From NCBI GenBank assembly GCA_024639405.1, contig JAHEIL010000019.1, positions 1-34,478 on the forward strand: a stretch of DNA of 34,478 bases. The letters are read 5' to 3'. Within the stretch, counting starts at the first letter, position 1. Every line of letters starts with the position of its first letter. A model generated the notes under the pieces. That model was not told the origin of the DNA. It did no database searches and saw only the letters and a list, made by a program, of their open reading frames with translations. The translations under genes were made by a program, and so were the position numbers. Origin of the DNA: Crocinitomicaceae bacterium (lineage in GTDB: Bacteria > Bacteroidota > Bacteroidia > Flavobacteriales_D > Crocinitomicaceae). This document shows positions 12,417 through 20,813 of the stretch, one piece after another.

Positions 12417-13433
12417 ATGGCATATTCAAAAGGATTTATTCGGTTTCAATGGACAATCTTAATCTCCATTTATTTGATTGTAGTTGCAGGTAGTTTGGTT
12501 CGCATAACAGGAAGTGGAATGGGCTGTCCTGATTGGCCGAAGTGCTTTGGACAGTGGGTTCCGCCAACACATAAAAGTGAATTACCTGCTGATTACAGAG
12601 AAAAATTTGCTGAAAAACGCGGGAAGAAAATCGATAAATTTTGCCGCTTTTTAAGTTCAATTGGATTAAAAGAAACGGCTGCTAAAATTCAAGCAGACCC
12701 AACTTTGCGCCAAGAAGAACCGTTCAACGTGAGTAAAACTTGGACAGAGTATGGAAACCGCTTGGTTGGTTTTCTTGCAGGAAATTTATTGTTAATCGGG
12801 TTAATTTGGGCCATCATAAAATACCGTCAGCGAAAGATCATTGGATTAATTGTATTAAACATCGTATTGATGGGAATTGAAGGATGGTTTGGATCTATTG
12901 TTGTTGCTTCTAACTTAGTGCCTTGGACCATCACAGTTCACATGTTGTTGGCATTAATCATCATTGCTGTTCAATTGTATATCGTAAAACTAGTGAGTGT
13001 ACGTCAAAAAGGCACAATAGAATTCACTTCTACTTTGAAGTGGTTGGCAATTGTTGTGTTAGCTATCACATTTTACCAATTGTTTTTAGGAACACAAGTA
13101 AGAGAATACATCGATGCTTTGACAAAACAAGGATTTGGAAGAGAATCATGGACCGAAAAATTGGGCTGGGCGTTCTATATTCACCGCACGTTTTCATGGT
13201 TAGTATTGGTCTTAATGGTCATTCTCGTTTGGAAAAATGAAAAAATGAAAAAGTATTGGATTGTTCGTTCTGCATTTATCGTTTTGGGAATTGAATTGAC
13301 CTCAGGTGTTTTATTGGCTTATGCGAATATGCCGGGATTGATTCAAACGAGTCATTTGGTTTTTGCCGCAGTGTTGTTTGGTATATTAACAATGTTGGTG
13401 TTTCGACTCAAAAGCGCATCAGACCAAAACTAA
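12417..13433 (+). CDS. ctaA: Heme A synthase (COX15/CtaA)
   Basis: The 338-residue inner-membrane enzyme oxidises the C8 methyl of heme O to the formyl of heme A, the cofactor of aa3/caa3 oxidases. Recognition rests on GSGMGCPDWPKC at 32-43, which holds the extracellular cysteine pair Cys37/Cys43, and on conserved histidines in TVHML (His175), YIHRTF (His256) and TSHLVF (His313). About eight membrane helices are apparent. In the first half, the motif usually read as E-x-x-H-R in this family appears as E111-Y-G-N114-R, so Asn stands where a heme-associated His is usual. The first periplasmic loop is long (about 44-107). The heme O supplier ctaB is in the window at 22945-23841 on the other strand. 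Confidence 0.94.
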   Translation: MAYSKGFIRFQWTILISIYLIVVAGSLVRITGSGMGCPDWPKCFGQWVPPTHKSELPADYREKFAEKRGKKIDKFCRFLSSIGLKETAAKIQADPTLRQEEPFNVSKTWTEYGNRLVGFLAGNLLLIGLIWAIIKYRQRKIIGLIVLNIVLMGIEGWFGSIVVASNLVPWTITVHMLLALIIIAVQLYIVKLVSVRQKGTIEFTSTLKWLAIVVLAITFYQLFLGTQVREYIDALTKQGFGRESWTEKLGWAFYIHRTFSWLVLVLMVILVWKNEKMKKYWIVRSAFIVLGIELTSGVLLAYANMPGLIQTSHLVFAAVLFGILTMLVFRLKSASDQN

Positions 13434-14813: not shown

Positions 14814-14844
14814 TTTGAAATTTGAATTGATTCACTTATATTTG
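14814..14844 (+). promoter_or_regulatory. Strong promoter TTTG-N19-TATATTTG for the tRNA transcript
   Basis: TTTG at 14814-14817, a spacer of exactly 19 bases and TATATTTG at 14837-14844 form the best full match to the Bacteroidota promoter consensus that I found here. Transcription should start near 14850, about 235 bases upstream of the mature tRNA, with no ORF in between. Confidence 0.65.
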
Positions 14845-14907
14845 CATCCCGAAAAGATTGAAATGCATTTTGGTATTCCATTCATCGGTTCAAGTTTTAG
14901 CAATGAT

Positions 14908-15074
14908 TTCTGCGCTAATGCTTGAATAATCGCAAGCTAAGTTATGAAGAGATTCTGCGCTAACGCTTGAATAATCGCAAGCTAAGTTATGAAGAGATTC
15001 TGCGCTAACGCTTGAATAATCGCAAGCTAAGTTAAGAAGAGATTCTGCGCTAACGCTTGAATAATCGCAAGCTA
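14908..15074. repeat. Four tandem copies of a 45-bp repeat upstream of the tRNA
   Basis: Copies begin at 14908, 14953, 14998 and 15043, spaced exactly 45 bases. Units 2 and 3 differ at one base, unit 1 has a few changes (GCTAATG for GCTAACG), and the last copy breaks off at 15074 after 32 bases. Each copy holds GCTTG and CAAGC separated by 8 bases, flanked by TAAC and GTTA, so each can fold into an imperfect hairpin as RNA. After the last copy, GCAAGC-TAC-GCTTGC forms another small hairpin just before the tRNA. There are no spacers, so it is not a CRISPR. The array lies inside the predicted tRNA precursor. Confidence 0.93.
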
Positions 15075-15084
15075 CGCTTGCTCT

Positions 15085-15158
15085 GGTCCTATAGCTCAGT
15101 TGGTTAGAGCACCTGACTCATAATCAGGTGGTCCCTGGTTCGAGCCCAGGTGGGACCA
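15085..15158 (+). tRNA. tRNA with CAU anticodon (Ile2 precursor or elongator Met)
   Basis: All arms fold: acceptor GGTCCTA/TGGGACC with one G-U pair, D-arm GCTC/GAGC, anticodon stem CCTGA/TCAGG with loop CTCATAA (anticodon CAT at 15119-15121), T-arm CCTGG/CCAGG with TTCGAGC, and discriminator A. The 3' CCA is not encoded. CAU can mean elongator Met or Ile2, whose C34 is changed to lysidine. The GGTCC acceptor end and CTCATAA loop resemble Ile2 of other bacteria, so I lean to Ile2. An initiator is unlikely, since the 1-72 pair is a normal G-C and the three G-C pairs in the anticodon stem are absent. It is followed by a terminator. Confidence 0.95.
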
Positions 15159-15169
15159 CAAGTAAAATC

Positions 15170-15199
15170 AAAGCCTTACAGAGATGTAGGGCTTTTTTT
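15170..15199 (+). terminator. Terminator after the tRNA
   Basis: A 10-bp stem AAAGCCTTAC/GTAGGGCTTT (one G-U pair) with loop AGAGAT is followed by a T run. It ends the tRNA transcript 12 bases after the mature tRNA. Confidence 0.88.
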
Positions 15200-15270
15200 C
15201 TTTTTGAAAACCCCGTCAAATAAGGAATTACAGAAAAGTGTAGGTTAATTTTTGAAGTTCGATAATTTGT

Positions 15271-20444: not shown

Positions 20445-20813
20445 TTATACTCCGTGAGATTTTAACACATCGTCTACATAAATACCTTCAGTTAATAAAA
20501 TGAAGATTAAGTATGCAATGAAAATAAAGTATGGAATCAAAATAACATAGCGCATCACTTTACGTTCGTCACCTAAGTGCATAAATGATAAAACAATGTA
20601 TGCAGCTTTTACTAATGTCAATGCAATAAATGACCATTTAACGATTGGCCAAATTGTAGTTCCTTGTTTTATAAACGCACCTAACAATACTTCTACAACA
20701 GTGATGATTGTCAATAAAGCGGTTACTTTCCAAATCTTTTTTCTTAGAACTTTTCCTTCTTCTTCACTGTGGTGTGCATCCAAAGAATATTCAATAACGT
20801 CGTCTCTTTCCAT
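20445..20813 (-). CDS. Cytochrome c oxidase subunit IV (prokaryotic caa3 type)
   Basis: The 122-residue protein has three membrane helices (about 29-47, 58-78, 88-108) and the conserved LSFMHLGDE after helix 2, typical of the small prokaryotic oxidase subunit IV (COX4_pro/CoxF type). It belongs to the inner-membrane oxidase complex and is not catalytic. It lies 19 bases after the second cox3 gene in the same run. Confidence 0.9.
   Translation of the reverse strand: MERDDVIEYSLDAHHSEEEGKVLRKKIWKVTALLTIITVVEVLLGAFIKQGTTIWPIVKWSFIALTLVKAAYIVLSFMHLGDERKVMRYVILIPYFIFIAYLIFILLTEGIYVDDVLKSHGV

Follow-up and report, generated by a model that had tools for sequence, protein, structure and literature searches.

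A tandem array before a putative tRNA-Ile2 gene of a Crocinitomicaceae bacterium resembles inverted copies of a dispersed REP-like element

The tRNA-CAU locus and its leader

The window, i.e., the whole stretch of 34,478 nucleotides that was analyzed, belongs to a 2.63-Mb genome (G000; 98% complete, 52 contigs) of a Crocinitomicaceae bacterium and carries a tRNA-CAU gene that is preceded by a tandem array and followed by a terminator-like hairpin (Table 1). The array (positions 14908 to 15074) comprises 3.7 copies with a period of 45 and 98% matches, which confirms the four 45-bp units in register described in an earlier note on this DNA. The order of tRNA-CAU and terminator given there also held; the terminator scan found one stem with a T run, where 0.4 was expected. 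Upstream of the array, promoter-like letters were read from the sequence of the forward strand (TTTG at 14814-14817, a 19-nt spacer, and TATATTTG at 14837-14844). A sigma-70 scan returned 2 sites versus 2.5 expected and thus gave no support for a promoter when taken alone; the promoter that the earlier note had placed here is backed instead by the same motif in relatives, as described below. On the 3' side of the terminator (15208-15240), the letters CCCCGTCAAATAAGG-ATTACAGAAA recur, by eye, between the tRNA and the following gene in three other loci (L039, L040, and L012). Another tandem repeat in the window (20499-20545; 18-bp period, 2.6 copies) has no evident relation to the array.

TABLE 1 Coordinates of the features at the tRNA-CAU locus (numbered from the first letter of the window)
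Feature	Position	Strand	Basis or remark
Putative promoter of the tRNA unit, TTTG-N19-TATATTTG	14814-14844	+	Sequence; motif shared by sister species ahead of this tRNA
Presumed pre-tRNA leader, up to 240 nt	14845-15084	+	The only TAnnTTTG within 330 nt is at 240 nt
Three inner 45-bp units (14908-14952, 14953-14997, 14998-15042)	14908-15042		Each has the element core and one arm of the second hairpin
R3 match to the full dispersed element, inverted	15034-15092	-	48.6 bits; element letters proper extend to 15084
Terminal leader hairpin, GCAAGC-TAC-GCTTGC	15067-15081	+	3 nt 5' of the tRNA
tRNA-CAU, read as tRNA-Ile2	15085-15159	+	Rfam tRNA, 72.6 bits
Intrinsic-terminator-like hairpin and T run	15170-15199	+	Stem at 15170-15195

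The tRNA behind the array is distinct from both Met tRNAs of the genome (Met identity judged by eye). We infer that it is tRNA-Ile2 (lysidine type) and not tRNA-Met, because the two other CAU tRNAs of G000 resemble Met tRNAs and because of its GACTCATAATC anticodon arm, which we take to point to tRNA-Ile2. Leader lengths were surveyed for the 29 tRNAs of G000 with enough upstream sequence. A TAnnTTTG motif was present within 330 nt for 25 of them, and the 4 tRNAs without the motif were left out. The distance from motif to tRNA exceeded 80 nt in 6 of the 25 cases. Because the other five long distances follow a tRNA, the array leader is the sole one of >80 nt with no tRNA ahead of it among the 25.

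Relatives were compared using 26 genomes of the window's genus, 22 of which had a readable tRNA-Ile2 leader (G010, G018, G020, and G022 gave none). This array or a remnant of it was found in 5 of the 22 loci, an unrelated tRNA-copying element in 7, and neither in 10. Among these 10 array-free loci, 8 of which are preceded by a homologue of the window ORF at 12417-13433 (read by eye as a heme A synthase), TAnnTTTG lies 26 to 55 nt before the same tRNA in 9 and at 87 nt in the divergent tenth locus (G001). The corresponding distances in the five species with the array or its remnant are 240 (window), 332, 332, 169, and 108 nt, and no TAnnTTTG was found between the array and the tRNA. Since the motif is kept in relatives while the intervening stretch changes, the distal promoter is probably the one in use, and the long leader proposed in the earlier note gains support from these five species, the start site itself being predicted. 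The leader on a further Crocinitomicaceae contig, JAGNZC010000001.1, is identical to that of G040.

In the folding that the earlier note had suggested, the leader alone is no more stable than its shuffles (z = -1.35; 20 of 200 shuffles were equally good). Covarying hairpins were found in dispersed copies of the unit. The leader, tRNA, and terminator together reach a z value of -3.2, as is expected from the tRNA and the terminator. The earlier note had assigned a hairpin to each unit; a self-contained second hairpin is present only in the last one (15067-15081), whereas the inner units are partly paired with each other in the predicted fold. Such pairing between units, together with the position of the array inside the presumed transcript, would suit a source of small RNAs released by leader processing; we consider this highly improbable, as the units differ between sister species and there is no target or conservation support. 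Several other tRNA leaders of G000 fold far better than shuffles (L063, Arg-ACG, z = -6.9; L059, Arg-TCG, z = -4.6; L062, Leu-TAG, z = -3.3), and leader hairpins may therefore be a general habit in this genome.

A dispersed palindromic element

To judge from their letters, the array units are inverted copies of a short, imperfectly palindromic element that is dispersed in several Crocinitomicaceae genera. The element is approximately 50 bp long and has two hairpins, with AAATAAGA followed by a hairpin of variable letters and then by GAU..C-AA-GCG-UUAG-CGC-A-G... The unit that the earlier note regarded as a tRNA leader repeat is real at the tRNA in sister genomes, but the note missed that it is an inverted copy of this family-dispersed element. 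When one mismatch was allowed, the core of the element, CTGCGCTAACGCTTG, was located in 14 of the 26 genus genomes at 38 sites, 20 of which are outside tRNA arrays; a reversed control pattern gave 3. At least 2 of these 20 sites (L078 and L084) look like chance matches inside genes, whereas at most of the remaining sites conservation extends beyond the core and a hairpin with variable letters is present. A covariance model trained partly on the last unit of the window (R1) detected the element in at least 15 of the 26 genus genomes (E value of ≤0.1) and in at least 16 of 199 genomes of the order (E value of ≤0.001), all of the latter being Crocinitomicaceae (5 of 62 genera). Element counts from these large searches are lower bounds, because few candidates were scored per genome. 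Two genomes of another genus, g19, had 72 and 76 matches at an E value of ≤1 (150 candidates scored per genome).

Because the last unit of the window had been included in the training of R1, we built another covariance model (R3) from 46 matches in four genomes of g19 only. R3 matched the last unit on the minus strand with an E value of 2.3e-9 over 62 kb (1.0e-7 for the genome) and scored the inner cores weakly on the same strand (21.7 and 21.7 bits, and 13.5 bits for the first unit). At least two places in G000 were matched, with 150 of 2,195 candidates scored, the second being a copy between rpsM and rpsK (1.7e-11). By this match, the last unit is a nearly complete inverted element abutting the tRNA, and the AAATA of the element gives way to the first five bases of the tRNA; the inner units are without one arm of the second hairpin. 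Another conceivable origin is a slippage repeat confined to the tRNA and without kin elsewhere. Contiguous units that are alike over 45 bp would fit such a repeat, but a model derived from another genus matches the last unit and dispersed copies share the core and the hairpins, which leaves this origin very little probability.

The two hairpins of the element covary. When 17 copies, including two linked to the tRNA, were aligned, 89.8% of the cells were paired and 35 cells were changed on both sides versus 12.2 in shuffles (0 of 500), whereas two of five covariation measures failed against the shuffles (pairs changed on both sides, 8 versus 7.2, 199 of 500; further pair types, 20 versus 17.5, 79 of 500). 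The 46 copies from g19 were 88.5% paired, with 100 doubly changed cells versus 23.2 in shuffles (0 of 500), in an alignment that was fitted to the R1 structure and therefore favors that structure. The outer GAU/AUC helix was paired in just 50% of the g19 copies.

Many copies of the element are placed at stop codons. In g19, 25 of 40 sites had the stop codon of an ORF (≥80 codons) inside nucleotides 1 to 15 of the element, 20 of them at a single offset (the TAA of AAATAAGA), versus 0 of 40 on the other strand and 2.0% for random positions in the same loci. One site was taken from each of 40 stretches, which represent 42 of the 49 copies listed in four g19 genomes; three weak tandem copies of L212 were left out of the sequence display of g19 copies. 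In genomes of the window's genus, the element read on the other strand often starts on a stop codon, such as those of rpsM (L077, L087, L112, and L115), infC (L082, L116, L118, and L129), dnaK (L119), and other genes (names assigned by eye), and it lies just before the stop codon of dnaK in L100. Other copies are off a stop codon (e.g., L076, L079, L089, and L102) or antisense to neighboring genes (L134 and L135). The rpsM-rpsK element is present in G000 (L112; G000:C14:26472-26531) and three sisters (L115, L077, and L087). At this site, G040 has different letters in place of the variable hairpin, and G006 has two copies of the element.

Rfam searches at the gathering score detected tRNAs alone in the window and ten loci. 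At an E value of ≤1, five loci of the dispersed element gave nothing on the element itself; the hits were to an S4 leader in another part of L077 and to a subthreshold leucine leader in L082. The element was found in neither Rfam nor the literature searched (open-access papers only).

The tRNA-Ile2 leader in relatives and its predicted role

Copy numbers at the tRNA vary among the sister species, with four copies in the window, six in G006, six in G040, two in G009 (spaced 43 bp apart), and a single decayed one in G014. Tandem copies of the element at the tRNA (6, 6, 4, and 2) were seen only in the window's genus. Full units (the last unit of each array and G009 being left out) are 96 to 99% alike within a genome and 92 to 93% alike between genomes. 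This difference and the 43-bp spacing in G009 agree with the growth by tandem duplication envisaged in the earlier note; the copy number comparison it had proposed, run here between sister species, gave one to six copies. Its suggestion that the strict register reflects a maintained function was not borne out, with the array absent from 17 of the 22 readable genus loci (7 with the unrelated array and 10 with none). Because tandem copies also occur at protein gene sites (L181, L185, and L212; rpsM in G006; dnaK in G002), amplification appears to be a habit of the element and not of the tRNA.

The position next to tRNA-Ile2 is shared more widely. Four genomes of the window's genus, two g19 genomes, and a g16 genome (with one mismatch) have an 11-nt core, inverted in every case, 25 to 28 nt before this tRNA. 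This amounts to 7 of 54 distinct tRNA-Ile2 leaders from three genera versus 0.025 expected, a count that leaves out L010, in which the core has decayed. As the same inverted core stands at the same distance in three genera, the tRNA-Ile2 address would be either old or repeatedly chosen. R3 does not score the tRNA leader remnants of g19 and g16, and the argument for an old address across genera consequently relies on the core and its position. Additionally, a terminal stem of at least 5 bp that ends within 4 nt of the tRNA was found in 38 of 51 distinct tRNA-Ile2 leaders versus 13.2 in shuffles, and one of 6 bp in 26 of 51 versus 5.9, although the leaders compared are related and these counts are therefore not independent.

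A second, unrelated unit of 84 to 95 nt, absent from the window, precedes tRNA-Ile2 in one to four copies at 7 of the genus's 22 readable loci as well as in other genera and families. It starts with an exact or near-exact copy of the first 12 nt of the tRNA, continues with TTCCCG..CGGGACAGGCAACTTCGC, and ends with the complement of the tRNA 5' end; its pairing amounts to 93.3%, with 7 doubly changed cells versus 2.1 in shuffles (0 of 500). A model of this unit (R2) had matches in at least 20 of 299 genomes of the order, and nothing was found in G000 under strict filters. The next gene at 23 inspected R2 loci (the third G291 match excluded) was tRNA-CAU in 20 cases and tRNA-His in 1 (L163), and 2 loci ended at a contig border. 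At L163, the element copies the 5' end of tRNA-His instead, and at a tRNA-Arg locus obtained by a pattern search (L263), that tRNA's own 5' end is copied. L013 and L011/L012 represent an empty site and filled sites of the element, respectively. The loci with the tRNA-copying hairpin, a host-specific mimic of the tRNA that it precedes, are L011, L012, L020, L022, L025 to L028, L137 to L156, L163, and L263, and the hairpin was not found in print (open-access papers searched). The idea that the window's unit is a shortened tRNA-copying element was dropped, the unit being without tRNA letters by eye and G000 being without an R2 match under the strict filters.

We consider it likely that the array is an amplified, inverted REP-like element at the processing site of tRNA-Ile2, with a predicted effect on the maturation of this tRNA. 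The array would be transcribed as a pre-tRNA leader and removed by RNase P at 15085, and its tandem growth would be slippage that is largely tolerated. The constrained part would be the terminal hairpin, which may prevent pairing between leader and tRNA and which, being 3 nt away from the site where RNase P cuts, may delay cleavage or impose an order on it. In Escherichia coli, pre-tRNA leaders are best single stranded, base pairing between the leader and the tRNA 3' end acts as an antideterminant, and a leader stem-loop in valVW inhibits RNase P cleavage (excerpts of PMC9433436). By analogy, the terminal hairpin may act as a brake on RNase P; as a leader hairpin is inhibitory by E. coli rules, it could also be a mere burden.

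It seems rather unlikely that the array is a selected regulatory leader. In such a leader, the AUA-reading tRNA would have its maturation tuned either by the number of units or by the pairing of the last CGCAAGC, with CGCTTG on its upstream side or with GCTTGC on its downstream side. In favor of this reading, terminal hairpins persist while their letters change, and one of two unrelated elements occupies this leader at 12 of the genus's 22 readable loci (the window's element at 5 and the tRNA-copying one at 7), but the remaining 10 have neither, the copy number ranges from one to six among sisters, and the leader alone is no more stable than shuffles. Because two unrelated tandem elements occur in the tRNA-Ile2 leader, we still grant regulation a small share of the probability. 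Similarly doubtful is a role of the tRNA-Ile2 leader of this family as a dedicated control platform, on which structured modules (the inverted element in the window and the tRNA-copying hairpin in relatives) would be recruited and tandemly amplified to set the rate of RNase P maturation, with copy number as an evolvable dial. Our verdict is that the leader is a real feature, exceptional within G000, and for the most part accounted for by an amplified inverted copy of a REP-like, stop-codon-linked element at an old tRNA-Ile2 address.

Significance and comparison with known systems

The odd leader is tied to stop-codon-linked palindromes that are absent from Rfam and from the literature searched, and the leader of this one tRNA repeatedly collects tandem arrays of structured elements. 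These observations bear on the spread of small palindromic repeats and on whether tRNA leaders are regulated.

The rtT repeats of E. coli tyrT are likewise tandem repeats in a tRNA transcript. They lie downstream of the tRNA and contain letters of its 3' end, whereas the repeats in the window are upstream and without tRNA letters. A CRISPR array was rejected, the units being head to tail without unique spacers. The valVW leader of E. coli resembles the window in having a hairpin close to the RNase P site (excerpts of PMC9433436), but the hairpin in the window has a dispersed repeat as its source and stands at the head of a tandem array.

Among REP elements, GTAG termini reportedly often supply a stop codon, many Pseudomonas REPs are in tandem, and CGTC repeats have been reported in Bacteroidetes (excerpts of PMC3733652). 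A RAYT-driven REP was not supported for the window's element, since transposase linkage was lacking: no Y1_Tnp transposase was found in G000, such genes were present in 13 of 16 genomes, and beside 25 of them there were two weak element matches (E values of 0.049 and 0.12). The element shares with REPs its short imperfect palindromes, its dispersal between genes and near gene 3' ends, and its occasional tandem arrangement. It differs in having no GTAG or CGTC tag (consensus of alignment A1 and of R3 by eye, with AAATAAGA at one end), in having two hairpins over approximately 50 bp, which exceeds the 20 to 40 bp of the REP definition, and in supplying its stop codon as the TAA inside AAATAAGA. 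We therefore call the element REP-like and not a REP.
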